Below are positions 30,237 to 64,000 of a stretch of DNA of 64,000 bases, in pieces (positions within the stretch are counted from its first letter, which is position 1; each line of letters starts with the position of its first letter). This DNA comes from Fragum whitleyi (Eukaryota > Mollusca > Bivalvia > Cardiida > Cardiidae). The notes below the pieces were generated by a model that did not search any database, was not told the DNA's origin, and worked only from the letters and a program-made list of their open reading frames with translations. Position numbers and translations under genes: made by a program. The DNA lies in contig OX411560.1 in NCBI GenBank assembly GCA_948146395.1, forward strand, positions 186,001 to 250,000, written 5' to 3'.

Positions 30237-30346
30237 CCATGGACAAATGACTTAGCTCAATGTACTTGTCTGCAAGTAAAAAAGCCCTTGTTAGACAAGT
30301 CAGGCATGGGAATTACACATACCTGATATATGCTTCTTTATTACAG

Positions 30347-43183: not shown

Positions 43184-44095
<912 letters not shown>

Positions 44096-44109
44096 TATTA
44101 AAACGAGTT

Positions 44110-45260
44110 TGAAATTGAAACAAAATGATTTTATATGTGTGTGGTATCCACCAATTTTTTTGCATTGTAATTGATTTAAAATGTGTTTTTATTTTGTAAT
44201 TGAAACATTTTTTTTATTTTTCATCTTCTTTGTTAGTTTGCGCTCAAAGTAGTCCCACAAAAAAAATCTGTCACATCTTGGGAAAATATTTACATTTTTT
44301 GGTTTATGGTGTTAAATTTTAAGATATGAAGAGAAAATCTTTTGAATTCATCGAGGTATAAAACTAAAAAAAAACATATGACACTCATGTATGAATCCGC
44401 TTCGCAAATCCACACAGTGTGATAAGGTTTTTATTTTCATTCCGGTATGAATTAAAAAAAATCTCTTTTATAAATAACAATAAGAATATATGTCCGAGCA
44501 TTTGTTTACTTGTCTGAAAGTAAATGAAAATGGCCTGTATTCAGGATAACGAAGCAGAGCGAGCTGAACAGGGCATTCGCGGGAACCTTCGGCGATTCTA
44601 CGAAATAGACCTCGTCCTTAATGTCGCACGTGGGATAATATGACGCCACAAATATCACCGAAGATGACTTTGCGAAAAACAAAATCAACAAAAAGTTAAA
44701 ACTTGGCATTTTATTACTTGATAACTGCGTTTTGTTTTCAAATTATAACATGCCAAAAAGATGTTCACGGATGAATTAGAAAGCATTTTCAAGATGTGTT
44801 TTACTTCAAACGTATTAACCGAAGTACCCCTTGAGACCTAATTACCTTAACAATGACGCAAAATTACTACAATTACGTCCGAGGTACTTTTTAGTTTTCG
44901 GAAAAGACCGAGCGAAGTTCCAAATGCGCACAATAGTAAAAAGGAACCGTAGAGTAAATGAAATCGTGAACTGGACTGTGAAAAAACCGAAATATACGTT
45001 TTTTTTCACGATGAATGCATACGTTTACCACCAAATTCCCGACTGATGCATGAATACATGTTGAAACTGCTAGTGCGGTCGTTTTCTTTGGCGTTCAGTG
45101 TCTCGGTGTTATCATTGAACACGGTTTAGACCTCACGCTTTGGTCGCCTTCTAGAAACTGATGAACTTTGGCCGTCTAAGTCTTATATCTCGGTCAAACG
45201 TAAGGTGAACATTATTCCTTAATTCAATTTTGATTAAAAAAACACAAAGCAAATACACCT
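44110..45260. other. Intergenic, no gene called
   Basis: 44330-44480 holds a piece of the TCATACC family. A 67-codon minus-strand frame (44506-44709) begins with a hydrophobic stretch, but I cannot connect it to any further exon. Nothing else is supported. Confidence 0.35.
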
Positions 45261-45268
45261 TGTTTCAG

Positions 45269-45328
45269 TCTTGGGTTCCGAAGAGCATAGCACAAGCGAG
45301 TGTCCCAAGTGCGAAATTTGTAAAGTTG
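45269..45328 (+). pseudogene. Candidate cysteine-rich exon cut by a MITE
   Basis: The acceptor CACCTTGTTTCAG is followed in phase 1 by a short segment ending STSECPKCEICKVG, then GGTAACATCG. The Cys pattern and phase resemble the first exon of the three-finger domains downstream (phase 1 start, C-x2-C), but the sequence GTTGGTAACATCGTGAAATTGAC that cuts it off is the terminus of the Tc1-like MITE. It could be a remnant of an upstream three-finger exon or chance; no partner exons were found nearby. Confidence 0.3.
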
Positions 45329-45510
45329 GTAACATCGTGAAATTGACAGTAATTATGATCAATACCGTTCAAAATCAATCGCTCAGCGCCCCAATCATTC
45401 ATTCCGAACACTCACTGAAATCGACCAAAATCGTTCCGAAATACATTGTAGTTCAAACAAGCTTCAATCAACAATTTGAAATCAAAGCACTGAAAGTACT
45501 GATGGTGAAC
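45316..45510 (+). mobile_element. Tc1-like MITE, left half
   Basis: GTTGGTAACATCGTGAAATTGACAG, CAATCGCTCAGCGCCCCAATCATTCATTCC and ACACTCACTGAAATCGAC match the left half of the family. The right half is absent. Confidence 0.6.
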
Positions 45511-45539
45511 GAACCTGATGGTATTCTAGAGTGATATAT

Positions 45540-47880: not shown

Positions 47881-47903
47881 TTTTTAATTCTATAATATTT
47901 CAG

Positions 47904-47951
47904 GTTGCTTTTGTTTTCTTATTTGTGTGTCGCACCTAGTTGATTCTCTAG
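47904..47951 (+). CDS. Modular gene: probable signal-peptide exon
   Basis: A 48-nt exon between the acceptor CTATAATATTTCAG and the consensus donor CTAG|GTAAGT, phase 1 on both sides, encoding CFCFLICVSHLVDSLG when joined to the next exon. The hydrophobic run followed by a small, polar exit matches the second half of a secretory signal peptide, and it joins in phase to the first three-finger exon, whose own start is the usual N terminus of such domains. The initiator Met must come from an upstream exon that I could not locate. Signal function is inference; the splice sites and phase are visible. Confidence 0.5.
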
Positions 47952-48138
47952 GTAAGTATTTTTTATTTTAAATTATGTTTTATTCTAATTTATTCATTTA
48001 TCTTTCGACTTCATCAATTCGTAAGATAAAACACTGTCAAACATTTCGAACCACAGTTTACAGTTAAAACATCATAAAAAGAGAAACGCGTTCCAATCAA
48101 ATCATTCTAGCAGTTTCGCTGTCTATCTTTTCGAATAT

Positions 48139-48572
48139 TACAGGCAGTAATGTCGTGAAATTGGCATTTATCTAGATTAAAATAAATTCTAGAACGTTCA
48201 CTTAGCGCTCCATTTATTCATTCCAAACAACCACTCAAACCATTCAAAAACGCTCCAAAATCACTGTTAAAGAAAAGATCAACAACTACATTCGAAATAT
48301 ATATGGCTAAACAAAATCCACGGATTCACTGACATAATTGAATTTTGCAAGCTTATGGTGAGTTTGTGAAGACATAGGAAGTTTCCTGCGTGTATTTTTT
48401 ATTAAAGGGATGTGATAAATATCGCGTATATTGTTCATCCTGAACAATAGTAGGGATATTGGATACCTACCTTGAATTTCACTTAAAACTTGCACCACAC
48501 ACACATTCAATTTTATTCCAAAATCCTTCCAAAATCATTAATTTTGTCAATTTCCCGAGTTTCATAACTGTA
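48139..48572 (+). mobile_element. Tc1-like MITE in intron 1 of the modular gene
   Basis: TACAGGCAGTAATGTCGTGAAATTGGCA at the left; TTGTCAATTTCCCGAGTTTCATAACTGTA at the right; interior CATTCATTCCAAAC and AGGGATGTGATAAAT as in the family. Confidence 0.7.
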
Positions 48573-48736
48573 CGAGATTAGATGGAAGCCTTGAGCGCTT
48601 GCTTCGCAGCCAACGGGGTGTGGGATCGAATAAGGCTTCTGATCTTTGAATATCCTTGTTTTGCCACTGCAAATTTTTGAAATGATTTACGCTAAATTTC
48701 AAAGTTCAAAATGCATCATTCTGTACAATCATTCTA

Positions 48737-48971
48737 TTAACCCTCTCCTGTTTTACAAAAATTTGGACCTGTCCAAATTCAAAGGTTTTGCAGACAAAAT
48801 TTAAAGTGGATTTAATTTGAAAAATAACCATTCAGTAGGGTAGAAAATAGTGTGGAAAAAGAAGAAATTGCTTGTCAGGAGCAATTTCTTCTTTTTTCAC
48901 AATGTTTTTTTTTTTTTCAATAATAAAATCACAGACACGTAAAAAGCAGGGATTAAACAGCAAAGGGTTAA
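48737..48971 (-). mobile_element. TTAA MITE with hairpin core, copy 4
   Basis: TTAACCCTCTCCTGTTTTAC to AGCAAAGGGTTAA with an intact core palindrome and a T-run expansion on one side. It ends 54 bp before the first three-finger exon. Confidence 0.8.
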
Positions 48972-49025
48972 GATCGATTTACAGCGCTAACATCACTTTG
49001 ATTTCTATTTTACCACCATTTTCAG

Positions 49026-49102
49026 GACCTTTGTGTTTGAATTGTCAGAATATTCCATACCCACGTGACTGTAATAGAATAGTGCAGTGTGCAGACGGAG
49101 AG
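49026..49102 (+). CDS. Modular gene: three-finger domain 1, exon A
   Basis: The acceptor CACCATTTTCAG (phase 1) and donor GGAGAG|GTACTT (phase 0) bound 25 codons containing C-L-N-C, then R-D-C and V-Q-C. This is the start of a Ly6/uPAR-type three-finger domain: the paired C-x2-C just after the signal peptide, followed by the third and fourth framework cysteines, as in CD59-like proteins. The same exon shape recurs at 52508-52599 (C-L-R-C ... Q-C ... L-C). A Tc1-like MITE begins only six bases into the following intron, yet leaves the donor intact. Such domains usually act outside the cell in binding; the ligand is unknown. Confidence 0.75.
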
Positions 49103-49107
49103 GTACT

Positions 49108-49549
49108 TATAGTTAATTACATCGTGAACTTGCCACTGATTACAATCAAAACCATTCCTAATCGCTCACCCTGCGTCCCTTTCATTCATTCCAAACTCAA
49201 AATCGAACCATTCAAAAACGCTCCAAAAATTACTACAAGCGATAAGATCAACAATTAAATTCAAGATAAATATATCTAGCAAAAAAGCGCGATTTCACTG
49301 ACATAATTGAAATTTCAAACGTCTGATTGGTTCTTAAAGAAATAGGATACTTTTTATAGAACTTGTGTGCATCTTTTATTAAAGGGAGGAAGAAATAGTC
49401 GCTTATTTTGGTCATCCTGATCAAAATTAGCGATATATGATTCCTTCCCTTTAATTCACTCAAAACTCACTCAACGCATTAATTCAAATCCATTCCAAAA
49501 TCATTCAGAAATCACTCACCTTGTCAATTTCAGGATTTTGTCAACTGAA
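49108..49549 (+). mobile_element. Tc1-like MITE abutting an exon donor
   Basis: TATAGTTAATTACATCGTGAACTTG at the left, CTTGTCAATTTCAGGATTTTGTCAACTGAA at the right, inner palindrome TCATCCTGATCAAAATTAGCG. The left TA is base 6-7 of the intron after 49102. Confidence 0.7.
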
Positions 49550-49789
49550 TTCACATTCCTTAAGCAGAAAGCCCTTAATGTGAGAATTTGTAAAACGTCT
49601 CGATGTCAGCATTGCTTTTAGAATGCTTTTGATTGGAATGAGTGCCTATTTCACTATGTTTTTAAATGTATATATGACCTGCCACGCGAAAAAGGATCAT
49701 TTGGGAACTCCGTAAAATAATATTTTGAAAAGAGATGGTTTGGTTATCGTTTATCGGAGGTCTGTCTTTAAAAAATACCTATATACATG

Positions 49790-50216
49790 TACAGTTAAAA
49801 CATCATAAAATTGACACACTGTGATCAAAATCATCAATATCACTCAACGCTCTATTCATTCATTCCAAACACTCACTCAAATCGATCAAAAAACGCTCCG
49901 AAATGGTTAGAAAAAAATCGTTCAAATCGTTCAAATCGATCAACATTTTATCAAAAATGATCAAATTATTCTACAACTTTTTTGCTGGTGTGGATTTTAA
50001 AGTGTTTGATTGGCCAAGAAGACAGACGAACAGAAACTTATGTTATCATATCATTAAAGGGAGGTAATAAATATAGCTTTTTGTTATCATGAACAAAATT
50101 TGCGATATTGGATTACCTTCCTTGAACTCCATTTAAACTCTTTCTACACACAAATGCAATTTCATTCTAGAATCATTCCAAAATCATTCATTTTGTCAAT
50201 TTCATGATGTTCTCAA
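49790..50216 (+). mobile_element. Tc1-like MITE, second copy in the same intron
   Basis: TACAGTTAAAACATCATAAAATTGACA at the left, TTTGTCAATTTCATGATGTTCTCAAG at the right, with AAAGGGAGGTAATAAAT and GATTACCTTCC as inner inverted repeat. Confidence 0.75.
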
Positions 50217-50390
50217 GAAAGGTAGAATGGAAAGTCTAGAATTTGAAAAAGTTCTTGTGCGAAGAGTTTCGATATCAGTAGGATTGTGCCATTCGCGCAA
50301 TCTGACTAGAATCCACACTTTTCGGACTTTCTAGATGGTCCCTTTTCGCATGCAGGGTCTCATGTGGATAATTGTATTTATTTCTTACAG

Positions 50391-50456
50391 AAATGTGAAG
50401 CTAAAAGCTTTATAACTGGTTCAGCAAATACTTTATATAACGTGGGTTGTTCATCG
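50391..50456 (+). CDS. Modular gene: three-finger domain 1, exon B
   Basis: A 66-nt exon in phase 0 on both sides (acceptor ATTTATTTCTTACAG, donor TCATCG|GTAAGA), 22 codons starting KCEAKS and ending YNVGCSS. It supplies the fifth and sixth framework cysteines and what should be the middle finger. It matches exon B of domain 2 (53698-53766) in length, phase and the closing G-C-x-S pattern. Identity rests on position, phase and the two cysteines. Confidence 0.7.
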
Positions 50457-50806
50457 GTAAGATACTTCTTTGTTAGCAAATCTCTGCCATCAGATACAAT
50501 ACGATATCCGATACGATATAGCAATAATACAAGCAGATCAAATGATATTATATGAAACAATGTGTAAAATAAAGTTTCCTCGAAATTCTATCTCTATTAA
50601 AAACTCCTTGATAAAATTATTGCATGATATGTCTCTATTATTTCACCATTCCAACACTTAAGGTAGACCTAATATTCCGGTTTAACGAACTATTTACAAT
50701 TTTTCATCATTGTCTAAGTTAGTAGTACTAAACTGTTTAAAGCGCCTAAATATTTAAGACACTTGAAAACTGCAATGTCATCCACAAAAACAATCATATA
50801 GAAATA

Positions 50807-51556
50807 TACAGTTAACAACGTCGTGAAATAGACAAAATAAATGATTTTGGAATGAAATTGAATGAGCGTGAGGAGCGAGGTTTTAGTGTTTTTAGAGGGT
50901 GGTAAATATAATCGATAAATTCGTCCAATCGGACGAAATTAGCTATATTTTTTACCTCCCTTTATCAAAATGTACGTATTTTCCTGATTATATGTCTATA
51001 CACTCAACTGAATGATTGAATTGAATTGAATTACGCCGCTTTCAACATTTTTTAAGTAATATTGCGGCGGCTGGAGCACCTAACACTGAATTCCTGGTAT
51101 TTCTCTCACCTGTACAACCACCATAACCTTTCCTAGCCCCAGCTGCTATCTCACATAGGTCTACGATTATCAACGCATTTTTTTTTACGAGACAAATAAT
51201 AGGAAAGATTGAATGCCGCTGTCGGAGATTGAACCCGGGACCTCTAGATTGACAGTCCGACGCGCTACCAACTGCGCTATGATGGCGGCTGTCTTTACAG
51301 TCAAACCAGAGGCTTTAAAATCAGCTCCAACCATTAAAGTCATGCAATGATTTGGTCGATTTGATTAAAATATTGATCACTTTGAATGATTTCGAAGCGT
51401 AGTTGAACGATTTCGGATCGTTCTTGATTGATTGGAATGAGTGTTTGGAATGAATGATTGGAGCGCTGGTCGAAGGACTTTTAGTGTTTTTTTTGTGTGT
51501 TTTTGTTTTTTTTTAATCGAGATGAGTGGCAATTTCAAGATGTTACTTATTGTATA
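50807..51556 (-). mobile_element. Tc1-like MITE interrupted by a SINE
   Basis: TACAGTTAACAACGTCGTGAAAT at 50807 and CAATTTCAAGATGTTACTTATTGTA at 51532-51556 are the two ends. A SINE at 51011-51293 splits the right half. The inner palindrome TTCGTCCAATCGGACGAA is intact. Confidence 0.7.
51011..51293 (-). mobile_element. tRNA-derived SINE inside a MITE
   Basis: Minus strand: ATAGCGCAGTTGGTAGCGCG, GGGTTCAATC, CATTCAATC..., GTGAGATAGCAGCTGG, GGTGCTCCAGCCGCCGCAA and the AATTC-rich tail. Near full length. It lies between exons B and C of three-finger domain 1. Confidence 0.8.
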
Positions 51557-51805
51557 ATGATCACTTTTGTTTGAAAAAAATCTACGAATAAAGAAAACTT
51601 TCGACCCTACACTGTTTTTCGAGGGTCGATTCTCTTTGCTCTTCTCAGTCCAGGGAATAATCTATGCATTTTGTGCAAAGTGATAACCCTTTTTCCGACT
51701 GAGATTATTCATTTCTATCCAACATTTTGAATTCGAGTGCCGGTATTCGTACGGGGTCCTCTTAATATCTTGTTATTAATATTACACTTTATATTTCTGT
51801 AACAG

Positions 51806-51914
51806 AATTGTAAGACCAAACGTTACGTGTCCAATGCCGACGATATAACTGTTTGTGATGCGTGTTGTGTCGGTGATTACTGCAATAGAGATCTCTGTGC
51901 TTTCGGAGCTCAGC
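51806..51914 (+). CDS. Modular gene: three-finger domain 1, exon C
   Basis: The acceptor TATTTCTGTAACAG opens in phase 0 and the donor CAGC|GTAAGT closes in phase 1; 36 codons plus one base. It carries six cysteines: N-C-K near the start, then V-C-D-A-C-C, then Y-C-N-R-D-L-C. The C-C plus C-N ending is the hallmark of Ly6/uPAR domains. Compared with ten-cysteine CD59-like domains there is one extra pair, so domain 1 has twelve cysteines over exons A-C. A 103-bp near-identical copy follows at 52012-52114. Confidence is high because frame, splice sites and cysteine pattern agree and domain 2 repeats the plan. Confidence 0.85.
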
Positions 51915-52011
51915 GTAAGTGTGTTTTAACTATCAAATATCTGATGGAAAACTGGGTTCTTCTTTCGTGACGGCAGTACGTCACACAATAAAAACGCGAA
52001 AAAAAACTTCG

Positions 52012-52114
52012 AAGACCAAACGTTACGTGTCCAACGCCGATGATATAACTGTTTGTGACGCGTGTTGTTTTGGTGATTACTGCAATAGAGACCTCTGTAC
52101 TTTCGGAGCTCAGC
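52012..52114 (+). pseudogene. Tandem duplicate of three-finger exon C
   Basis: Matches 51812-51914 with seven substitutions in 103 bp, four of them synonymous; the donor CAGC|GTAAGT is retained. The first six bases including the leading Cys codon are lost, and the sequence upstream is A-rich without a pyrimidine tract. If spliced at the AG just before ACC it would lack one cysteine. Most likely a dead duplicate exon, but an alternative exon cannot be excluded. Confidence 0.75.
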
Positions 52115-52284
52115 GTAAGTGTAGTTGAACAATCAAGTTAACAATTAATTCCCTCGCCACTTGCCCACAGGAACCACAGTCTCATCCGCAACCCTTTGAA
52201 CCTCATTACCAAGGCTCCCAACCCTAACCCTAGCCCGAGGTTGAAGGAATTGATAACAGTCGAGGCTCTGTTACCCGAATTAGA

Positions 52285-52490
52285 TATTTTTTTCATATTA
52301 CTTAGTTCGTAATATATCTATCTTATAATTTTGTTAGCCTTGTTTTCTTCGATGGTACTAAAAGAAATACATTTTTTCCAAGTTACTAAGAATAACCGCA
52401 TTATGTCATTGTTCTTAAAATATACATGTGGTATCATAAAAAATATCATATGGTGTGTTATCATACGTATATTTGTATAGTTACAAGATA
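52285..52490 (-). mobile_element. TATACAAATATC family repeat, inverted copy
   Basis: Reverse complement shares GTATACAAATATACG, ATGATAACACACCATATG, AAGAACAATGACATAATGCGGTTATTCTTA and the ATATATTACGAACTAAGTA end with 59935-60250. It stops just short of the acceptor of 52508. Confidence 0.5.
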
Positions 52491-52507
52491 AATTGTTATT
52501 GTTTCAG

Positions 52508-52599
52508 CTGATTTGTCTAACCGCACGTATTGTTTACGTTGTGATGACGTGATTGATCCCATACAGTGTGAAAACACCGTGCTGTGTAAACCGAACGAA
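52508..52599 (+). CDS. Modular gene: three-finger domain 2, exon A
   Basis: The acceptor TTATTGTTTCAG (phase 1) and donor CGAA|GTAAGT (phase 0) give 30 codons: a short DLSNRTY lead, then C-L-R-C, a I-Q-C and V-L-C. It repeats the plan of exon A of domain 1 with a longer N-terminal lead that acts as inter-domain linker. The predicted N-R-T is a possible N-glycosylation sequon. Confidence 0.8.
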
Positions 52600-53401
52600 G
52601 TAAGTTTCAGTCAAATAAATAGCATGCGTTTATGAACATGAGACGTTTTTAACCAGTATCTTGGACATACTTTTGTATCGAAATGGCCATTGTAGAAATG
52701 CTTTCTGTCAGGATTCAAATTGAATATAGTGTAAACAAGTTGAATTGTTGATCACAGAATAGAATTTGGTGGTGAGTGACAGGAAAAATGTTTTCTCTGG
52801 AATGCAATCCGTTAATTAAGTAGTGGATCGTAATTAATCAACAATCTCACATAGCAGAGCTATCTTCAGAGGCACGTGTAGTAATGAGAATAATTGCTGA
52901 TTGCAGATAATCTTGACCACTATCTATCTATTCAATGTTTTAAGCTCCACTGGAGCTATTGTCACGGCCTGGTGTCCGTCGTTAGTGAGCCATTCCGTCC
53001 TGCGTCCGTAAACCTTGTCTTTAAACATCATCTTCTCTGAACCTACTGGGCTTAAATAATAGTTATATAATATTTTTTTCATTAATTGAAATTCTTACAT
53101 TGCGCTTAAATGAAGTACATTGCCAGGGATTTTATTGAAAGTAGATTTTGTGAAGATTCTAGTGTTCCTTCTGTAAGCATCAAGGAAATACAAAAAGAAA
53201 TAAGTTTCTATAAGTATTATCAGTCATACTAGCTGAAGTATTTCAAATTATCTCCAAAAGGTACCCATATTCGTTTGTGTGATTTTTTTTATCATCCGCC
53301 ATCTTGAATTAATGTACACGGAAGCTTTACTTCAATTATGGGTATCTCTTAATCAATGGTACAAAATGCCTGTCCATAGTACCAATATTTATTTTTATAA
53401 A

Positions 53402-53612
53402 TGAGCCTATGCGTGACATTTGATCAGTGTCTGAGGAGCAAACATTGAGCAGCATATATAGCAACAGGTATAATTAAAAGATTGCTTGAATGTCTCTAGA
53501 TACTTGAGAACTTATCTCTCTACAAAACGCAAAGAAAAGACTCTGGTCAGACTGTGCGAATGCTTTTCTTGGCGCACATTTGAAAATGTTGAAAATGCCA
53601 AGCAAAGGCTCA
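53402..53612 (+). mobile_element. MITE of the TGAGCCT family, copy 3
   Basis: TGAGCCTATGCGTGACATTTG at the left and AATGCCAAGCAAAGGCTCA at the right; interior GAAAAGACTCTGGTCAGACTG shared with 37131-37362. The intron from 52600 holds nothing else recognised. Confidence 0.5.
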
Positions 53613-53697
53613 AATAACAATAGTTTGTTCGTTTTTAGAGCAAAACAATCAATAATTCGAATCTAATTGTCGCAGGATCTTTGTTTTATCTCCTTAG

Positions 53698-53766
53698 ATA
53701 TGTTATACAGAGTACATAAAACGTAATGGAGAATATCGATATAGAATGGGATGTATAAGTCCGCAG
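53698..53766 (+). CDS. Modular gene: three-finger domain 2, exon B
   Basis: A 69-nt exon in phase 0 on both sides (acceptor TTATCTCCTTAG, donor CCGCAG|GTAAGT): 23 codons, ICYTEYIKRNGEYRYRMGC then ISPQ. The C-Y-x-E ... R-x-G-C pattern is typical of the centre of Ly6/uPAR domains and is closer to consensus than exon B of domain 1. Confidence 0.85.
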
Positions 53767-54062
53767 GTAAGTCCAGCTTCACATTTCATATGCCGTAGTC
53801 CTGATTCAAATTTAGCTAATGGTCCAAAATTGAATTCTTATTTTGACTAGAATTTCGTAGTCCAGATTGGAATCTAGCCAGACCTGGAATTAGACTCATC
53901 CGAATTAGAATACTGATTTGGCCTTTTTCTGAAAATTTCGGAATTTGATTGGGATCATTCCAAATGGTATTGTAGATAATGCGTCATATAGTAACTACAA
54001 AGTGACTAGTCGTGGTAGGGCTTAAAATTTCAATGACTTAAAATATTAAGAACTTCAGTTCG

Positions 54063-54335
54063 AGTCGAAAAACAGCGCAGTTGGTAGCGCGTCGGGCTGT
54101 CATTCTAGAGGTCCTGGGTTCGATCCCCGACGTTGGCTCTCATTCTTTGCGACTATATGTCTTTCACAAATGGGTCGATAATCGCAGACCTATGTGAGAT
54201 AGCAGCTTGAGGCTAGAAAGGATGAAATGGTGGAACTGGTGAGAGAAACACATGGAATCCATTGTAAGGTGATCCAGCCGCCGCGATATAGCTGAAAGAT
54301 TGTTGAAATCGGCGTAAAACCCCATTCTAACAAAG
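54063..54335 (+). mobile_element. tRNA-derived SINE in the modular gene
   Basis: Head GCGCAGTTGGTAGCGCGTCG, B box GGGTTCGATCCC, body to GGTGATCCAGCCGCCGCGA and CGGCGTAAAACCCCATTC. Full length except for the CAAT tail. Confidence 0.8.
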
Positions 54336-54944
54336 ATAGATCCAGTCGAGAAAGCTTCATATGTCTGGCGAAAATCATAACATCTATTCGGTCTAGTCCT
54401 ATTCTGAATCTGGTCATCATGACTCCGACATTATTCCAATGATTACATAACACTTTACGCTGTATTTTATTTCCGGCTCTGGGACCCGTTTTAACAAACT
54501 TCTTACGAAAAAGTAATTGAAAGTCAAAATCACAAATCGTGTCTGGTATTTTCATTCATTGTTACATTCTGCCTTCCAATATCTGATTGGAATCGTCTTT
54601 AGAAGACGGCTACAATGAGATGATGCATGGCAGAATTCCATATATAGTTATTGCTGTAGAAATAACCTGTATTTTAAACTTGCGCAAAAAATGATCGTAA
54701 GAATGTGTTTAAAGCAGAGAAATATCAACATTTCTTCAGATAAACCAATAATTCTCATTTCTTTTTATTTCTTTTCCAATGTCATACAGCTCATACAAAA
54801 TGGCCTGATCCCGTTTCAAATTATGTTGTTGTTTTATTTAAATACGTTTTTCAAGCACTGTCCTGATTGATGTGTGACTTAATCATAACATTCTTTTAGA
54901 AAGACACCAAAAGTGTATCAAAACTAGAGATTTACTGAACTGTA

Positions 54945-55331
54945 ACTAAAACTTTTCATTAGAACCAAACAACAACAACGAAAACACGTCTTCTCTCTCA
55001 AACAAATCAAACACATTTGGCCTAGCTGAGTGTGTGTATATTTCCTTTTATTTATCGTCGCTACCGTAGCACATGCCCATATGAGCGATACCCCAAGAAG
55101 ACGGTTAGTTGTTACAGGTGATAGTGCAAGGATACATGAACACTCTACTGCTGAGATCCGCCATGGTTCTTTAACCTGCTCGGTGTAAAGCACCGTCCTT
55201 CGGGACATCGGTTTAACGTCTCGTACGAAAGACAAATAGTTTTGTTAGTGTACTAGCCCGTGAATCGAACTCACGCGGTCGAACTTCAATGGTTTTGAAG
55301 TCCAGTGCTCTACCGTCTGAGCTAACCAGCT
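54945..55331 (-). mobile_element. Second SINE type with tRNA-like head and conserved core
   Basis: Minus strand from 55331: GCTGGTTAGCTCAGACGGTAGAGC (A box and D arm), CGTGAGTTCGATTCACG (B box in a perfect 5-bp T stem), then a core with CGTACGAGACGTTAAACCGA-GTCCCG and GGTTAAAGAACCATGG. A GAGACG-TAAACCGAGGTCCCG...TAAAGAACCC core is, from my knowledge, widespread in molluscan SINEs (MESC/Meta-SINE type); the assignment is not checked by search. The anticodon arm is irregular (two mismatches if the loop is CTTCAAA), so this is not a functional tRNA gene. Confidence 0.6.
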
Positions 55332-55504
55332 GAATAACAATTATTTGAATTTTAACCGGAGGTTATTTTCAACCTATCTGGTTTGTTGTTTCAATTGTTA
55401 CAAACTTAATTGGCTGAAAATAACTTCCAGTCCGTGTTTAACCAATAGTTATCTTTTATACATCTGGAGACTGAAAAACAATATTTATTTTCTACATTCT
55501 TTAG

Positions 55505-55667
55505 AGTTGTCGAGTACCGTCTCCAGCTGATTCTAGGCACAAGCGATTCCTGATAAACGCTGATGTCCGGATAGACAGTTATTGTAACCAGTGTTGTCGG
55601 GATATTACGGGAACCAGCGGAAATTGTAACCGGAAGTTATGTAATAGCCAGGAACCAAACCCTGCAA
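55505..55667 (+). CDS. Modular gene: three-finger domain 2, exon C
   Basis: The acceptor CTACATTCTTTAG opens in phase 0 and the donor GCAA|GTAAGG closes in phase 1; 54 codons plus one base. Six cysteines: S-C-R at the start, Y-C-N-Q-C-C, then N-C-N-R-K-L-C. It is longer than exon C of domain 1 because of a basic insert (SRHKRFLINADVRID) in the third finger and a Gly/Ser-rich stretch between C-C and C-N. It ends with a Pro/Asn-rich linker. Domain 2 therefore also has twelve cysteines. Confidence 0.85.
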
Positions 55668-55695
55668 GTAAGGACTCAACATGACTGTTCAATGC

Positions 55696-55923
55696 TTAAC
55701 CCTTTGCTGTTTAATCCCTGCTTTTACGTGCCTGTGATTTTATGATTGAGAAAACATGATGAAAAAAGAAGAAATTGCTTCTGACAAGCAATTTCTTCTT
55801 TTTCCACACTATTTTCTACCTTACTGATTGATTATTTTTCAATTTAAATCCACTTTTAATTTTCGTCTGCAAAACCTTTGAATTTAGACAGGTCCAAAAT
55901 TTTGCAATACAGGAAAGGGTTAA
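55696..55923 (+). mobile_element. TTAA MITE with hairpin core, copy 5
   Basis: TTAACCCTTTGCTGTTTAAT to ACAGGAAAGGGTTAA, 228 bp. Starts 28 bp after the donor of 55667. Confidence 0.8.
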
Positions 55924-56509
55924 ATGGATGTTTACCTTTTTGCAGAACACAGTTTTAATTTGTAAGAAATAAGGCTGTACGCTGAATAAGCTTATGTAAC
56001 GAAACCTTTATCTTGGATAATGGCCTCATCTCATTTGGATTTATAAGCAAGCCAAGCCTAATTAAGACTTCCTGTTGCAAAATGATCTTTTTATAAGATG
56101 TATAGCTTTTGAAACTGTATTTTGAAAATAATGAAAAATGAAGAATTACTATGAGGTAACGATTTTTTTTACTTTACTAATATCTGGGCCCGAGGATAAA
56201 ACTTTTCTTAGGGTCAATTGAGAATTTTCTCAAATTTTGAATTTAAATAAATGTATCAAAATAAAAGATAATATTATTAAGTTGTTTTTTATAACAACTT
56301 ATTTATATTATCTTTAATGTTAATGCATAAAAATTAGTATTTATACAGAATAACGGTTTTAATCTCAAATTGAAATTTGAAAAATAATGAATTTTGAACG
56401 AGAAAAGATTTATAACATTGGGCCCTGATTTTCATAATTAATTTTCTGAACAATTTTCTGATACATTCATGTTTTAACAAAGCTGATAGTTTTTATTTAT
56501 ATTTTCAAG

Positions 56510-56668
56510 ATGTTGAAATTTTAACGCTCGTCGACCCTCCAATAAGGACGGATTCGTGTGTAGACTTAACGGAGACCAGTTGTAAAATATTGGTACTTGA
56601 GGACCCAACAGAGTGTAATGTACCGGGTATAGCTAACTATGCGTGTAGGCGGACGTGTGGAACTTGTG
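56510..56668 (+). CDS. Modular gene: ShKT-type domain exon
   Basis: The acceptor TTATATTTTCAAG and donor TGTG|GTAAGT bound 159 nt, phase 1 on both sides. After a 15-residue lead come C-V-D, S-C-K, T-E-C-N, Y-A-C, R-T-C and G-T-C: six cysteines ending C-x3-C-x2-C with T-C-G-x-C, the signature of ShKT (ShK-like) domains. These are common as add-on modules in secreted enzymes and matrix proteins of invertebrates; nothing here says that this protein is a toxin. Being phase 1-1, the exon is a clean shuffling unit. Decayed partial copies of its 3' half follow at 56704-57155. Confidence 0.85.
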
Positions 56669-56703
56669 GTAAGTTTTGTGATGCGTATGTTGTATAACTT
56701 GAT

Positions 56704-57155
56704 GAATATTAGTGCTTGTTTTGACAGAGTGTAATGTATTGGGAATAGCCAACTAAGCGTGTAGCAGGGGCTAATGTTAAGGTTTTTAAAAGTGTACGGG
56801 ATAGAGCTTGTTGGTTATTGGTACTTCGGGACCCGACAGAGTTAATATACCGGGTATAGCTAACTATGCGTGTAGGCGTTCATGTGGAACGTGTGGTAAG
56901 TTGGGCGTAGCGTACGAGATTAACCTTCATAAATATTGGTACAAGAGGACCCGACAGAGTGTAATGTACCGGGTATAGCTAACTATGCGTGTAGGCGGAC
57001 GTTTGGTACTTGTGGTAAGTTTGGTGCAGTCTATTGTGTATTACTTAATGAAAATTAGTACAAGAAAACCTATCATAGTGTAATATACCTAATAAAGTAT
57101 ACGGGAGTTAAATGTTGGTACTAGAGGACCCGACAGAGTGTAATGTACCAGATAT
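56704..57155 (+). pseudogene. Five decayed partial copies of the ShKT exon
   Basis: The 3' half of the ShKT exon plus some intron is repeated with a spacing of about 112-115 bp at 56704, 56816, 56930 and 57045, and again (shorter) at 57109. The copy at 56930-57020 is nearly intact including its GTAAGT donor but has Phe in place of the fifth cysteine; others have frameshifts, stops or lost cysteines. None has the 5' half or an acceptor. These are non-functional pseudo-exons within the intron. Confidence 0.85.
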
Positions 57156-57157
57156 TG

Positions 57158-57375
57158 TTATGGTAGACCACTCTCACCACTGTCCTGCATAGCTTCGTAG
57201 GTTTAAATACAATGACTGACAACTGCGTCAGGGAAGATCTTCTTTGGCTCAGTGGTAATCGCATTGGACTTGTTAACCAAAAATTCGAATATTTCTTGTC
57301 CGCGTGGGTTCGAGGCCTGCTCACGACGGATATTTTTCAGCTATGCTTCGGTTGAGGACAGTTCGTTTATAATAT
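57158..57375 (+). mobile_element. tRNA-Thr-like repeat, unit 1
   Basis: CACTCTCACCACTGTCC leads to a tRNA-like head (TTGGCTCAGTGGTAATCGC, loop CTTGTTA with TGT, GGGTTCGAGGCC) and then CAGCTATGCTTCGGTTGAGGA. A second unit starts 351 bp downstream at 57509. A SINE-like or tRNA-pseudogene-derived repeat. Confidence 0.55.
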
Positions 57376-57508
57376 GGGACTCGTCTGAGATTTGCCATTG
57401 AGCCACTTATATCGGCTTTGTACCGACTTGGTTAGTTAAAAAAAAGCACATTACTGCCTAGATAGGTTTATCGTCATCAATATATGATGACTCTTAAGGG
57501 GGAGTGTG

Positions 57509-57722
57509 TTATGGGAGACCACTCTCACCACTGTCCAGCATAGTTTCGTAGGTTTAAACACAGTGTCTGACAACTGCGTCAGGGAAGATCTTCTTTGGCT
57601 CAGTGGTTAGTGCATTGGACTTGTAAACCAAGGATTTTGATATTACTTGTCCGCGTGGGTTCGAGGCCGGCTCACGACGGATAATTTTCAGCTATGCTTC
57701 GGTTTAGGACAGTTCGTTTATA
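57509..57722 (+). mobile_element. tRNA-Thr-like repeat, unit 2
   Basis: Same sequence as 57158-57375 with few differences (TTGGCTCAGTGGTTAGTGC, loop CTTGTAA, GGGTTCGAGGCCGG). Direct repeat of the first unit, separated by about 130 bp. Confidence 0.55.
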
Positions 57723-57835
57723 ACAATATATATGTTGTCACCTCGTCAAATATAGACTGGTTCTACAGGGTACTCGTCCAATAGAATTCTGTATTGTAGT
57801 CGATAATGTTAAATAACCTCTTAATATCCCACTTG

Positions 57836-59211
57836 TACGAGGGGTGACCCAGAAATTCGTGAACTTTTTCAATTATTCAAAAACCCAGCGTCCGATTAAA
57901 GTAAAACTCTTGAATTGACAACACATGTTTATTTGCACCAAATTGATAAAAGTTTTACGGTTTTAACAGGTTAATGTTCAGAAATACAGAAATGAAAGAC
58001 AGGCTTACAAATTTTATAGGGTAGATGCTTGAACGTCATAAGTTTCAATATTCACGAAGAGTTTGATATAAAACTAACACTGTTGAAAGCAGTGAACTTG
58101 TTACGTCACACATGTGCATTTTCATACAAATGACATTACGCATTGTGTTTTTATGGAGTTTTGTTATATCCGAGTGAAATTCAAATGTTCTGAAAATGAC
58201 GACGTCAACGTAACGCTCGGCGCACAAAATAGTTCATAATTAGGTGTGAATCGGGAAATAAGACCTATACAGACCACAAAGGAATTCTAAATGAGGAATG
58301 ACCATAACCTTATGTCGTCTACACTCATTTATCACAGTTAAAAGAGATATCAAACAGAAACTGACTTAAGGAAAGTAAGGGAAAAGGGTCGAATAAGGAA
58401 GAACCAATGCGAGGAGCGTCGATAAGGGAATAAAAGACCTTTTCTACCGACGCCAATCAGAACGCCTGATTGGATAAACAGAAACTAAGAATAAGTAAAT
58501 CAGCAGTGTATAGTTTGATATGACTTCATCACGATTCGAGCCAGTAAATGATAGGCATCGAGGCTTTAAAGAAATATGCATGTACTTTCGGCATCAACAG
58601 AGATTTGGAAACGGTACCCATGAAATCCAAGATTTCTTTGGTCTATCTCGATGAAATAAGGTGGCGGTAGTGTAATACTAGGGTATTCAAAACTAATCAG
58701 AATAATTATTTTCTGTGAGCATATTACAATAAAAGATCCACTGATGAAATGTCTTAAAATGTAACGATAGGTTATGAAATTTATGGGTTTTTTTTTTTAC
58801 TTTATTCACCCCTTCTCGGGCTTAAAAATACTATATTGCGTATCTACGCAAAAGAATGAGATTTTTTTTCAAATCAGATGCTCTATTTAATGCACAACAC
58901 AAGTCTATACATGTACCAATATTGCTTTGAGATATGTAGATACTGTTTTTTTTACAAAAGGTTCTTCGTAACAAGTCCATAGGGGACGTTTCGTGTATTA
59001 TAAAACGACTTTATCGATAGCATGCGCCGACACACATTTAATAGTGTTACGTTTTAATCTATATCTCCGCAAGTATTGGAAACAGCCCTCTGTAATTACA
59101 CCAGAACAAAGAAAAATGATCAATCCGAATTATTTGTAAGTTTCAGCTTTATTTGACATTTGATATAAAAGTTATCGCAAAAGTTCACGAATTCCTGGGA
59201 CAACCCTCGTA
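57836..59211. mobile_element. Mariner-like element, 1376 bp, no intact transposase
   Basis: The left end TACGAGGGGTGACCCAGAAA-TTCGTGAACTTTT and the reverse complement of the right end, TACGAGGGTTGTCCCAGGAA-TTCGTGAACTTTT, match at about 30 of 33 positions, with TA at both borders. CGAGGG termini, TA target and a length near 1.3-1.4 kb are typical of mariner elements. I see no open frame longer than 61 codons and no transposase motif in it, so it is non-autonomous or badly decayed. Confidence 0.75.
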
Positions 59212-59653
59212 TGTAGGCAGACATATTTATTCTGCTTTTAGGATATATGTTTTGGCGAAAAGCCTTATTTTTAGTCATGCAGGCATAAAGCTACACGATA
59301 CTGCTTGTCAGTGGTAAAAACTAAGATAATCTTATATTGTTTTCAATAAAGTTTCAGCTAGGAGGAGTCATTTCCAATTTAAATTGAACGATTTCAGATT
59401 CAGATTGGAGTCTAGCCAGATCTAGAATCAGACTAATCCGAATTGGAATTCTGATTTTTGCCCTTTTCTGAAAAAATCCGAATTCGATTAGATACAGTGG
59501 TCAATCTAAATTTTTGCTGGGGATACTCGTCGGAATATTTCCAAGACAAAAATCACCAACAACATATGAATGATCTAAATTACCATCACTGCCGCCTATC
59601 TCGAGCCCTCATTGAATTTGAGGACAAAACGTCTGTGATATGACATACTTGAT

Positions 59654-59872
59654 TTAACCCTTTCCCGTTTTACAAAATTTTGACCTGTCAAAATTCAAAG
59701 GTTTTGCAGGCGAAAATTTAAAGTGCATTTAATTGGAAAAATAACCAATCAGAAGGGTAGACAAAAAGTGTGGAAAAAGAAGAAATTGCTTGTCACATTC
59801 TTTTTCACAATGTTTTCTCAATCATAAAATGACAGGCACGTAAAAAGAAGGGATTAAACAGCAAAGGGTTAA
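59654..59872 (-). mobile_element. TTAA MITE with hairpin core, copy 6
   Basis: TTAACCCTTTCCCGTTTTAC to AGCAAAGGGTTAA, with part of the core hairpin deleted (219 bp). Confidence 0.75.
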
Positions 59873-59934
59873 ACAGTATTCAATAAAGATGAAAAAAAGT
59901 TTTGAAACGAAAGACAACATTAAACTACTTTCTT

Positions 59935-60250
59935 TTTTTTACCTTATAACTATACAAATATCCGTGTGATTACACCCCATTGGATATTTTTATGATATCA
60001 TATGGGCATTTTTAGAACAATGATATTATGCGATTATTTTTAGAAACACGGCAAAAACTTGTATTTCTGTTAGAACCATCAAAGAAAAAGTGGCTAACAA
60101 AATAATCAGATAAATACAATAAGAATTTGGTATGTTTTATGAAAAAAAGGTCTAACTCGGTTGTTGGAATTGATAATTGTCTCGGCAGTTCCTGCAACCT
60201 CGTTAGTTATTTTCTTCATACAATACAACTAAGTACGTATTATATATATC
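59935..60250 (+). mobile_element. TATACAAATATC family repeat next to the linker exon
   Basis: Matches 33300-33610 along its length. Its end (AGTACGTATTATATATATC) runs straight into the pyrimidine tract of the acceptor at 60266. Confidence 0.55.
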
Positions 60251-60266
60251 TTTTTTTACTTTTTAG

Positions 60267-60305
60267 TGGCTACCGTGAATCCAGGAACACCTTTGCCCGC
60301 CACTG
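60267..60305 (+). CDS. Modular gene: short Pro/Thr linker exon
   Basis: The acceptor CTTTTTTTACTTTTTAG and donor CACTG|GTAAGG bound 39 nt, phase 1 on both sides, encoding ATVNPGTPLPAT after the split first residue. A Pro/Thr-rich spacer between the ShKT domain and the kringles fits a flexible, possibly O-glycosylated linker. Evidence is splice sites, matching phase and composition; the exon is so short that it needs transcript support. Confidence 0.55.
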
Positions 60306-60454
60306 GTAAGGAAAATTTCAACACCGTTTTTGTATAATAATCCTTCGTTTTGGTATCAACAAAATATCTCATCGTAAGCGTTTGTTGTCCCCCTATGAAA
60401 TATAGGCCACTAAATCGAACTGAACGCATAACAAACAATTAGTTTCTCTTTATA

Positions 60455-60535
60455 ATATGTCGCGGGGGTGAAATATCGCACTAGTGGAATAACTATGCAA
60501 ATGAGCTCGATACAGTCTCATTTATTATCTATTTA
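60455..60535 (+). mobile_element. End fragment of the 19705-20860 family
   Basis: GTCGCGGGGGTGAAATA and CTAGTGGAATAACTATGCAAATGAGCTC match the left end of the family. The right-end sequence follows immediately as a tandem array. Confidence 0.55.
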
Positions 60536-60858
60536 GAGATGTTCGTTTGATAAATTCCGTATTTAATGACCACTTATTCAATGTCCTCTATACTCGGCTT
60601 TGCCTCGTTTTTATCTATATATATAGATGACTCGCTTAATAAATTCCGTATTCAATGACCACTCATTCAATATCCTCTATACTAGGCGCAGTCTCGTTTT
60701 TATCTATTTATAGATGACTCGTTTGATAAATTCGGTATTCAATGACCACTCATTCAATATCCTCTATACTCGACCTTGCCTCGTTTTTATCTTTTTATAG
60801 ATGCCTCGTTTAATAAATTCCTTATTCCATGACCACTCATTCAATATCCTCTATATAT
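60536..60858 (+). repeat. Four ~86-bp tandem repeats before the kringle exon
   Basis: The unit (GA-TCGTTTGATAAATTC, ATTCAATGACCACTCATTCA, ATATCCTCTATACT, TCGTTTTTATCT) is repeated three and a half times at a period of about 86 bp. It is the right end of the 19705-20860 family. The last unit stops 12 bp before the acceptor of the kringle exon at 60871. Confidence 0.8.
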
Positions 60859-60870
60859 TTTACACCCTAG

Positions 60871-61032
60871 ACTGTTTCTATGACAGTCAAAGATACCAAG
60901 GAGCATACGAAACTACGGTCAACGGAGCTGATTGTATAGACTGGTCGTCTGTGTTTAATGTTGACTCCATGGCGTCCATGTTTCCGGATGCCACTCTAAA
61001 AGATGCCAGAAACAGATGCAGGGATCCAGACG
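60871..61032 (+). CDS. Modular gene: kringle 1, first exon
   Basis: The acceptor ATTTTACACCCTAG and donor CAGACG|GTAAAA bound 162 nt, phase 1 on both sides. Residues start CFYDSQRYQGAYETTVNGAD, then C-I-D-W, and end N-R-C-R-D-P-D. This is the first two thirds of a kringle: opening Cys with following aromatic, Y-x-G, T-x-x-G-x-x-C-x-x-W and the C-R-D-P-D-G turn split by the intron. It joins in phase to 62413-62484. Kringles are extracellular binding modules of about 80 residues; lysine or other ligand binding cannot be judged from this. Confidence 0.9.
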
Positions 61033-61699
61033 GTAAAAACGTATTTCTGTTTTTATTCTTGAGGGGCTTCGGTCATATATCACAGCTTTAAATACAGGGG
61101 TCAATTCGGACTTCAGACTCAAATAATTATTATATTTAGAGTATATCTCAATTACAAAAATCCCAGATACTTTTGTATTCGTTTGAATCATCTCGTCGAA
61201 GCGACTTTCAGAAGAACCTTATATGATTTGGGATATGATTTTGATGTTTGTTTTTTTTAATAATATGGAACAAATTAAGTTGATGAATTGATAACTGTTT
61301 TGATTTTATAAATCCATCTGTCCATAACGGTTGGCTTTTGTTTTTGACGGACGGGCTTGTCGTAAACGACTTTTAATTATGACTATAATAGTTAGGTATA
61401 AAATACCCTTTTCTGCAATATGAGAAAAAGTGACATTCGAAATAATTAGCGATATTCCTTTTTGTACAATGTTACTGGTCAAAATAAAAAACAGTAGTTC
61501 AGATTCTTCGTGCTCGATACAAATTATCGTTGGAAAACCATTCTACATAAATACGTGTAATGCCGAATAAAATATCTTGGCAAAGCACAACCAAATGAAA
61601 GTGCTAAAGGCACTGGATGCACTAATTGTGAGTCTGTTTCCGTTTTGAAAATTAAATTTCAAAGCTTTTCTGAGCTAAACAGAGAAAAACAAGTGTTAT

Positions 61700-61797
61700 A
61701 GAGGAAGATCAGACTGCACATTTGTGCAGGCCTATGTTTGTCTATAGATTCTGTCAAGGCAGGAATATTCTGGTTTTAGCATGACAAGGGTTAAGTT
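61700..61797. mobile_element. TTAACCCTTGTCAT family, right half
   Basis: GATCAGACTGCACATTTGTGCAGGCC..., CTGTCAAGGCAGGAATATTC and TTAGCATGACAAGGGTTAA match 5036-5253. The left end is not clear. Confidence 0.5.
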
Positions 61798-61807
61798 AAA
61801 TGCCGAG

Positions 61808-61925
61808 CTCGCCGGCATTTACCTCCCAGCAATGGGCGGACAATATGTAGTGCACGTGAGTGGAATATGCAGCTGGTAGCCCGGATGAACGTTGTGGTTT
61901 TACTGGTGTGAGAAATGTATATTAC
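61808..61925 (+). mobile_element. Degenerate SINE piece
   Basis: GCCGGCATT-ACC, CAATGGGCGGA, GAATATGCAGCTGGTAGCCCGGATG and TACTGGTGTGAGAAAT follow the order of the tRNA-Asp-like SINE body, heavily diverged. Confidence 0.3.
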
Positions 61926-62175
61926 GTACTAAGTGTTTGTATGGAAAACAATATCTAACGAGAATGGGGTAATTGGTAATTGTCGAGGCTTTGCCTAGTA
62001 CGTAATATAATTAACTTATAACCTTTATTTACCCTTGTTTTCGTCGATGTTTTGAAATTGCAAGTTTCTAAAAATAACCGCACAATTTCATTGTTCTGAA
62101 ATATACACATGATATCATAAAAATAGAATTTTGGATGTTATCAAACGGATATTTGTATGGTTATAAGATAAAGAA
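61925..62175 (-). mobile_element. TATACAAATATC family repeat, second inverted copy
   Basis: Reverse complement shares CATACAAATATCCG, ATGATATCATGTG, CAGAACAATGAAATTGTGCGGTTATTTTTAGAAACTTG and the TACTAAG...ATAT end with the other three copies. Confidence 0.5.
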
Positions 62176-62412
62176 CGGAAAGCCATAGGTAGATTCACAT
62201 GCCGCCACCACAAATAACTACAAATTTCTAAAGAATTAAATGCGTTTAACCTCAATCAATTAACATTTAGTAATGTGTTTTCTACTAACCTCGATCAATC
62301 AACATTTTGTTATGTAATTTCTATTATCTCCATAAAACCAACATTTAGTTATGTGTTTTTGTACTAACCTTAACCAACCAATACTTAGTTATGTAATTTC
62401 TACATTTGACAG

Positions 62413-62484
62413 GACGTGGCCACCCGTGGTGCTTCACTTCAACCAACAATGACTGGGACTATTGTCCTGTGCCTTTTTGTGAAC
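62413..62484 (+). CDS. Modular gene: kringle 1, second exon
   Basis: The acceptor TTTCTACATTTGACAG and donor GAAC|GTAAGC bound 72 nt, phase 1 on both sides. Joined to 61032 it gives G-R-G-H-P-W-C-F-T-S, then W-D-Y-C-P-V-P-F-C-E: the P-W-C-Y/F-T, W-x-Y-C and final P-x-C of a kringle, so all six cysteines of kringle 1 are present. A TTAA MITE begins ten bases after the exon end. Confidence 0.9.
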
Positions 62485-62494
62485 GTAAGCATGC

Positions 62495-62723
62495 TTAACC
62501 ATTTGCTGTTTAATCCCTGCTTTTTACGTGCATGTGATTTTATGATTGAGAAAACATTGTGCAAAAAGAAGAAATTGCTTCTGACAAGCAATTTCCTCTT
62601 TTTCCACACTATTTTTCACCCTAATGAATGGTTATTTTTCAAATTAAATCCACTTTTAATTTTCGTCTGCAAAACCTTTGAATTTGGACAGGTCCAAAAT
62701 TTTGTAAAACAGGAAAGGGTTAA
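62495..62723 (+). mobile_element. TTAA MITE with hairpin core, copy 7
   Basis: TTAACCATTTGCTGTTTAAT to ACAGGAAAGGGTTAA, 229 bp, inserted ten bases downstream of a kringle exon. An open frame of 105 codons that runs through the exon and MITE in a shifted frame is an artefact. Confidence 0.8.
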
Positions 62724-63058
62724 GAGTCAGTAAATCCATTATCTGTTGATAGGCATTCTTTTTGAATGAGGATATCCGAGTATTAAAAGAAAGTAGTTCG
62801 GTACTCATCCCTTTTCTGATTTAAGCATTATTGGAATACCGAATTATTTTCTGATAATATTCATATATCCTTTCAATGTTAAACTGGTAGCCCGTTTGAG
62901 AGTTCTCTAGTATCAATAAATCTGGAGGGCAGTCGTCCAGTCTTTTCACATGTACAGCATCGCGTTTTACAATTTAATTTAATTTGGATAAACTGATGTG
63001 TCATCTAAGAACGTCATGAATATGCATGCACAGACAACAAACCATGCGCTTACGATGA

Positions 63059-63156
63059 CAAAACGGTGCAAAACTGTTTGCAAATCATGCCCCATTTTGC
63101 GCGTACACCGGCTTGCAAAGCGAGGTATAATTTGCAAAGACCTTGCAGCGTTTTTA
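63059..63156. mobile_element. ACAAAACGGTGCAAA foldback, copy 2
   Basis: The arms ACAAAACGGTGCAAAACTGT and ACCTTGCAGCGTTTTT pair imperfectly; the interior CCCCATTTTGCGCG and AAAGCGAGGTATAA corresponds to 40985-41091. The surrounding 62724-63446 has no exon I can support. Confidence 0.5.
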
Positions 63157-63446
63157 CATTCTGAACACTGGATTGATGAGGCACAATGATTGATTCCATG
63201 GTAAAAGTTTCATATAGATCCAGTCTATATTTTGATGAGCCATGCCTTTTCCGACTGGAGCAAGTCATTGACATTTTACGAATGGATTTTTTTTATTGAC
63301 ATTGCAGATAATGTAACAGTCAAATTTCCATAGTAACTACAAAGCGACCGATCGTCGAAGAGCTTAAAATCATATGACGTCACAATAGTAAAATAATGTA
63401 AACTCGTTTTCAAGTCGAAAATGGCCTATATGAATAACAATCTAAA

Positions 63447-63650
63447 TCAAAAGTTGACGGCGGCATTCACCTTTTCTGGCAATTTGTCATCCACCAATTA
63501 ATAATGGAAGAGCTATGTGGGATAGCAACTTTGGACAAGAAAGGATGAAATGGTTGTATTGGTGTGAGTAATACCAGGAATCCATTGTAACGTGCTCCAG
63601 TTGCGATTTAACTGAAAGGTTGTTGAAAGCCTCATAAAGCAACAAATATA
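63447..63650 (+). mobile_element. tRNA-derived SINE, diverged, headless
   Basis: GACGGCGGCATTCACC, GGCAATTTGTCATCCACC, GAATCCATTGTAACGTGCTCC and AACTGAAAGGTTGTTGAAAGC follow the family order with many changes. Confidence 0.55.
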
Positions 63651-63856
63651 TATTGCAAGCCAGTTTATGATCCTATTTAACTTGGATTTTTATACTACTA
63701 ATGTAAATAATGACCAATTTGAAAACCTTACATAACTACAACGCGGCCAATCGTGATAAGGTAATGCATTATTCTTTCGTCTTTTCTATGAGTTACCTTG
63801 TTTCATATTATAATTATATTATATTCTCTATAAAATTCTTAATTCTTTTACAACAG

Positions 63857-64000
63857 AGTGTTTCTTCGCCAATGAGAGTCGACTCTATAGTGGCTACAAG
63901 ACCACGGACCAAGAAGGTACCAAGTGTGAACCCTGGACGAGCAGCGGTTATTCGTTACCGGACGCTAACTTTGTGGACGGGTCCAAGGCCGCCGCCGGAA
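63857..64000 (+). CDS. Modular gene: kringle 2, first exon (cut by window end)
   Basis: The acceptor CTTTTACAACAG opens in phase 1: C-F-F-A, then L-Y-S-G-Y-K-T-T, G-T-K-C-E-P-W-T, and on to the last base with no stop. It repeats the kringle opening of 60871 (Cys-aromatic, Y-x-G-x, T-x-x-G-x-x-C-x-x-W). The N-x-C-R-x-P-D part should follow beyond the window. This region is markedly more GC-rich than its surroundings. At least two kringles are therefore present in series. Confidence 0.9.

Follow-up and report, generated by a model that had tools for sequence, protein, structure and literature searches.

Kringle, ShKT and three-finger (LU) modules are each well known singly, and the described systems that come closest to a chain holding all three are a limpet pedal mucus protein, some snail ShKT proteins, plasminogen and HGF, and the uPAR/Ly6 family. 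Here we describe a gene of the bivalve Fragum whitleyi in which modules called as LU, ShKT, kringle and TSP1-like follow one another in a single open frame. The gene was found in a stretch of 64,000 nucleotides on the + strand of contig OX411560.1 (C19:186001-250000, hereafter the window, whose numbering is used for C19 unless the contig is named). It extends on the + strand from 47904, where the first exon found begins, to a stop codon at 76968, about 29 kb, and is cut by the window end.

The nearest system found, P-vulgata_14 from limpet pedal mucus, is also a secreted molluscan mosaic with kringle and ShKT modules, but it has peptidase M12A, ApeC, CUB, SUSHI and C-type lectin domains, and LU and TSP1 are not among the domains listed for it in the available part of the paper (PMC7333891). 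The CAP-ShKT and M12-ShKT proteins of the snail Cumia reticulata are likewise molluscan and contain ShKT, but carry CAP or an M12 metalloprotease, and the words kringle and Ly6 are absent from the main text of that paper (PMC6409789). An astacin review treats ShKT and, in the part available, names kringle among the domain types in a figure legend (PMC9848320). Plasminogen and HGF share the kringle fold with the present gene, in which no serine protease motif was found and the lysine-site residues are not all kept. With the uPAR/Ly6 family it shares tandem three-exon LU modules and, possibly, a glycosylphosphatidylinositol (GPI) tail; the differences are twelve invariant cysteines in the three LU modules compared, LU followed by ShKT, kringle and TSP1-like modules, and an LU1 that scores below the Pfam cut-off. 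LU, ShKT and kringle in one protein were not met in the titles and abstract openings of the open-licence PMC papers that our searches listed, and the papers there that hold kringle, ShK and uPAR together are by title apparently human biomedical. An earlier note on the window knew of no described protein with this module combination, and these papers gave none.

Exon edges were set from 44000-64000 and then from the next 80 kb 3' of the window. The gene model contains 20 exons with 2375 coding bases and 792 codons including the stop (the first codon is partial), and encodes 85 cysteines; 12 in-phase exons lie at 47904-64000 and 8 in the next 13 kb. An AG acceptor precedes all 20 exons, a GT donor follows every exon except the last, which is terminated by the stop, and one frame stays open throughout. 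Every border between called modules is in phase 1, while the introns within the LU domains are in phase 0. Phase-1 introns at the module borders across 20 exons are the mark of a class 1-1 module mosaic, and exon shuffling of phase-1 modules is a known process, as set out in the available part of PMC8001218. The exons named in the earlier note were all recovered on the + strand at their places, bounded by AG and GT splice sites and in phases that fit, and the phase 1 that it gave for every domain edge held over all 20; its text counted ten exons, its own list twelve, of which the latter is correct for the window, and eight more lie beyond. We consider it rather probable that this one gene of about 29 kb encodes a secreted or surface-tethered, non-enzymatic mosaic protein of at least 790 residues with a probable binding role.

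Exon A (47904..47951, phase 1-1) encodes a hydrophobic signal-peptide part with a mean hydropathy of 2.47 over 12 residues. LU1 follows on exons B (49026..49102; splice sites, frame, Pfam), C (50391..50456, phase 0-0) and D (51806..51914, with the CC..D.CN end), and LU2 on exons E (52508..52599; splice sites, LU alignment), F (53698..53766) and G (55505..55667). Exon H (56510..56668, phase 1-1) encodes the first ShKT and exon I (60267..60305, phase 1-1) a short Pro/Thr linker; kringle 1 is split between exons J (60871..61032) and K (62413..62484), and kringle 2 occupies the single exon L (63857-64093, C19:249857-250093), which crosses the window end, so that the at least two kringles of the earlier note are both present. 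Beyond the window come ShKT exon M (65276-65383), linker exon N (66861-66902, 42 bases), ShKT exon O (68538-68645), exon P (69963-70202) with a Thr/Pro stretch and a TSP1-like module, the Thr-rich exon Q (72437-72550), ShKT exon R (73965-74075), the ShKT-like exon S (74823-74927), and exon T (76715-76968), in which a ShKT-like part is followed by a hydrophobic tail and the stop. The exon list of the earlier note was right as far as the window reaches, and missed what lies past its end: five ShKT (two of them weak), a TSP1-like module, Thr-rich stretches and the hydrophobic tail.

The strongest profile match was given by kringle 1, which scored 57.2 bits against Pfam PF00051 (cut-off 34.3), while kringle 2, scored alone as a single exon, reached 31.1 bits and stayed below it. 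LU1 scored 22.3 bits against PF00021 (cut-off 24.8, E 1.9e-4); two of the three members of the LU alignment matched this profile at E up to 10. LU2 aligns with LU1 and with the LU of a paralogue on another chromosome (C3, described below), twelve cysteines being invariant across all three together with the C-x2-C start and CC...CN end that mark the family, and LU1 and LU2 each show the three-exon layout (B-D, E-G) of the LU family. A profile made from the three rows gave two weak PDB matches, each to an LU protein: SLURP-1 (E 0.2) and GPIHBP1 (E 8.8). For ShKT (PF01549, cut-off 20.9 bits), exon O scored 21.2 bits, above the cut-off, and M (20.0), H (13.5, E 0.11) and R (12.4) fell below it. 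The six-cysteine ShKT pattern is present, and a nine-row ShKT profile (six rows from this gene including H, three from the paralogue) matched 11 PDB entries at E up to 10, with E below 0.01 for two (best 8e-4); six entries bear the names ShK, ShTK or kappa-stichotoxin, and the remaining five are presumably ShK-type peptides. The TSP1-like piece aligned with thrombospondin-1 over residues 6-51 of 51 (E 0.012 for the chain). The domain calls of the earlier note thus came through a profile search in part: kringle 1 was borne out, LU1, ShKT H and kringle 2 remained below their cut-offs, and LU2 had no match. Profile evidence is weak for LU2, for the TSP1-like module and for the two final ShKT calls.

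The ShKT pattern with phase-1 splice sites occurred at five places on the + strand of the 29 kb gene region (H, M, O, R and S) and at none on the - strand, exon T not being matched on the + strand. Dinucleotide shuffling of the + strand (300 replicates) produced 0.01 pattern matches on average, none with splice sites, a figure that overstates the surprise because the pattern was composed after the exons had been seen. Chance cysteine frames were rejected on this control.

The genome (1.2246 Gb, 38 contigs) was searched with the LU-LU-ShKT part; of the 21 matches obtained at E up to 10, ten lay inside the gene itself. The best outside match was a ShKT exon on C3 (61% identity, E 1.3e-12), with two kringle matches just after it. 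The paralogue at this place (C3:11028037-11059861), mapped by tblastn and exon scans, has the order LU (three exons, one domain), ShKT, split kringle, one-exon kringle, ShKT, short linker, ShKT, which with its phases is the order of the C19 gene; it is unlike the C19 gene in having one LU where that has two, and in that no P-to-T-like exons were found within 45 kb downstream. The exons of the single C3 LU are nearest to B, F and G (counterparts at 11028037-11028128, 11031643-11031702 and 11035788-11035923). Compared exon by exon, the two genes are colinear over ten pairs (B, F, G, H, J, K, L, M, N, O), in which the phases agree and the length differences are multiples of three; in both genes kringle 1 is split, kringle 2 is intact and the 42-base linker exon N is kept. 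Over the ten exons 192 of 375 residues are identical (H 30/52, J 27/53, K 13/23, L 33/76), and identity at the three codon positions is 233, 254 and 131 of 375 (62/68/35%). By the Nei-Gojobori method pN was 0.34 vs a pS of 0.86, of which only the direction is safe since synonymous sites are near saturation. A translated gene leaves this pattern of conserved residues and worn third positions, and since the paralogue shows the module order of the first half to be inherited and under constraint, the locus represents a type of protein rather than a chance run of exons. The extracellular mosaic of phase-1 modules proposed in the earlier note is supported by this kept order. At C3:11099271-11099453, 40 kb downstream of the last paralogue exon that was found, a phase-1 Sushi-like exon was seen, which may be its next module or belong to another gene.

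Partial tandem copies of single exons were seen in two introns of the C19 gene. At 52014-52114 lies a near-identical tandem copy of exon D that lacks the first codons and a good acceptor and retains the donor; it could be a dead or an alternative LU1 exon. The intron after exon H has, at 56831-57089, two or more incomplete tandem copies of that exon with a period of about 119, one with a cysteine changed to phenylalanine. Such copies look like raw steps of mosaic growth. They would also suit a gene that has decayed or is not expressed and retains relic exons, an explanation that we regard as very improbable given that the 20 main exons are all open and bounded by splice sites and that constraint is seen between the paralogues over the first half.

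Whether the LU and kringle parts belong to one gene was weighed against an arrangement of at least two adjacent genes, an LU-LU gene (GPI-anchored or secreted) followed by a kringle/ShKT gene. The 3.6 kb intron between H and I would accommodate such a border, and a third locus on the + strand (C19:7736850-7748450) consists of ShKT, Thr-rich, ShKT, short linker, one-exon kringle and ShKT exons, all in phase 1, with no LU found in the 30 kb read (7.732-7.762 Mb). This locus shares the phase-1 ShKT, Thr-rich, linker and one-exon kringle exons with the main gene and differs by its one kringle and by the LU not found there. On the other side, the filters used returned no exon between G and J (55668-60870) that combines an ATG, a hydrophobic core and a phase-1 donor, as a signal-peptide exon would need; across the gene there are three signal-peptide-like candidates, which lie over exons D, K and O but in different frames. 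When ten exons are read past their donors, the frame closes after 4-28 residues (only five after G) without a tail resembling that of exon T, and phase-1 edges flank exons H and I, with the same adjacency on C3. Separate LU and kringle genes were therefore rejected as the first choice, for want of a start-exon candidate and on the adjacency kept on C3, and we judge them unlikely. The missing start between G and J is the better argument for one gene, because a block copy would also preserve adjacency.

The kringle search of the genome gave 35 matches. A ShKT frame was not found at eight kringle loci (L001-L008, about 3.2 kb each) or in 10 kb stretches on C9 (L035) and C4 (L039, exon scan only), and was present at L036, the third locus on C19; beyond the C19 and C3 genes, only L035, L036 and L039 were read past 3.2 kb. 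From this sampling some, not all, kringle genes here seem to be of the mosaic kind.

Several points weigh against a single complete gene of this kind. The gene model is built from genomic DNA, and no ATG exon upstream of exon A was identified, none of 27 candidates within 12 kb being convincing. LU2, the ShKT-like exons S and T and the TSP1-like module, each taken alone, have no Pfam match, and two immunoglobulin epsilon entries slightly outscored thrombospondin-1 (E 0.0056 and 0.011), so that the TSP1-like call, made from the spacing of Trp, Arg and Cys, is a guess. Exons A, C, D (as a separate exon), E and I have no identified counterpart in the C3 paralogue with its one LU, and exons like P to T were not found in 45 kb after its exon O in searches that included nine of thirteen queries at E up to 1. 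A run at C3:11068732 resembling part of exon R and an exact seven-residue match to exon T at C3:11067475, directly after a stop codon, were dropped as lying outside a full ShKT frame. The second half of the C19 gene thus lies outside what the paralogue covers and is argued for by its frame, splice sites and patterns. Colinearity with C3 would also be kept by a block copy of two adjacent genes, and a signal-peptide-like start candidate, which also favours two genes, stands before kringle 2 in the C3 gene (C3:11048707), where a second promoter is possible. Finally, a possible donor (AAG|GTGGGT) precedes the hydrophobic tail of exon T, and the tail could then be due to chance.

A protease link, one of the possibilities raised in the earlier note, was not upheld. 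The trypsin motifs DSGGP and [TS]AAHC were absent from 144 kb of C19 on both strands in six frames, and neither a trypsin motif, the astacin motif HExxHxxGxxH nor a kinase motif was found on either strand of these 144 kb, of 100 kb of C3 or of the 30 kb of the third locus (C19 7.732-7.762 Mb); intron-split copies would be missed in all these scans. The protease reading was rejected for lack of a trypsin or astacin motif in the regions scanned. Residues of the kringles were compared with the plasminogen-type lysine site, which kringle family membership does not require. The best PDB match of kringle 1 is plasminogen, with HGF also among the best matches; aligned with plasminogen kringle 4, kringle 1 has D-G-R over D-A-D, with Arg at the second Asp, and the C3 paralogue has D-G-K. 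Those acids hold lysine in plasminogen. Kringle 2, judged by eye, has neither acid and no Trp before Cys. Since the lysine-site residues are not all kept, plasminogen-like lysine binding by these kringles is unlikely.

The same observations bear on the idea that the protein acts as a receptor or regulator within a kringle protease system and that its LU modules bind kringle ligands as uPAR binds uPA, with both partners fused in one chain. Although LU and kringle modules do share a chain here and plasminogen is the top PDB match of kringle 1, the Arg (Lys in the paralogue) at the second Asp, the lack by eye of both acids and the Trp in kringle 2 and the protease motifs not found make such a role quite improbable. 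Exon T may provide surface attachment: its tail is uncharged, has a mean hydropathy of 2.03 over 19 residues and runs up to the stop codon, and an AATAAA follows 258 bases further on, at 77226. GPI anchoring is usual, not universal, for the LU family, and the tail fits a GPI signal.

If the last exon were misread and the tail not part of the protein, the product could be a fully secreted scaffold of shell matrix, pedal mucus or epithelial mucus, cross-linked and glycosylated. The Thr/Pro-rich exons P and Q and the Thr-rich exon at the third locus would suit such a scaffold, and the limpet pedal mucus protein, in the description available, joins kringle and ShKT with other modules (PMC7333891). 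That protein, however, has M12A, ApeC, CUB and SUSHI, none of which appeared in the Pfam scan of this gene, the M12A motif was not found, and the uncharged, hydrophobic tail ending at the stop speaks for a tether; we hold the secreted scaffold to be possible, with a minor share of the probability. The preferred reading remains a surface, perhaps GPI-anchored, or secreted binding protein, which is most likely on our inference, and adhesion, matrix and defence are not separated by sequence alone.

In this preferred protein, modules held by disulfides would stand in the order two LU, ShKT, two kringles, two ShKT, TSP1-like and three ShKT, spaced by Pro/Thr-rich segments that may form O-glycosylated stalks, and the uncharged hydrophobic tail directly before the stop would act as in GPI-anchored proteins. 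The modules, presumably translated from a single transcript, may bind ligands or neighbouring matrix or cell surfaces, which would make the product an adhesion or recognition protein. The gene would have grown by shuffling and tandem duplication of phase-1 modules and would be a member of a small family in this genome. A more far-reaching and doubtful idea is that it belongs to an undescribed old family of long GPI-anchored proteins, with an LU tip and kringle, ShKT and TSP1-like modules on glycosylated stalks, which might bind themselves or their paralogues through LU-kringle contacts (compare uPAR-uPA in vertebrates) and recognise self, tissue or microbes, with module number varying by tandem exon duplication. 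The locus provides a concrete gene for asking whether invertebrate kringles outside a protease setting act as binding modules.

Some further features were noted in and around the gene. Within 47904-76968, on the + strand, the introns contain the short words AGAAGAAATTGCTT (5 times) and CATCGTGAAATTGACA (4 times), a sign of interspersed repeats, and pieces that by eye resemble tRNA-like SINEs, e.g. near 54070-54140. Upstream, a tRNA-Asp (GTC) is predicted at 24722-24795, and an open frame of 318 aa at 30295-31251 has a C-terminal zinc-finger-like end (CEQCGKVCRTSNMARHKKRYC). Downstream, on the - strand at 93873-95924 (L011-L012), a tandem repeat of another cysteine motif, CxCxCGGxYECxGxxVICTxxGCRxTCxGC, with about 165 bases per unit, may be part of another secreted-protein gene.

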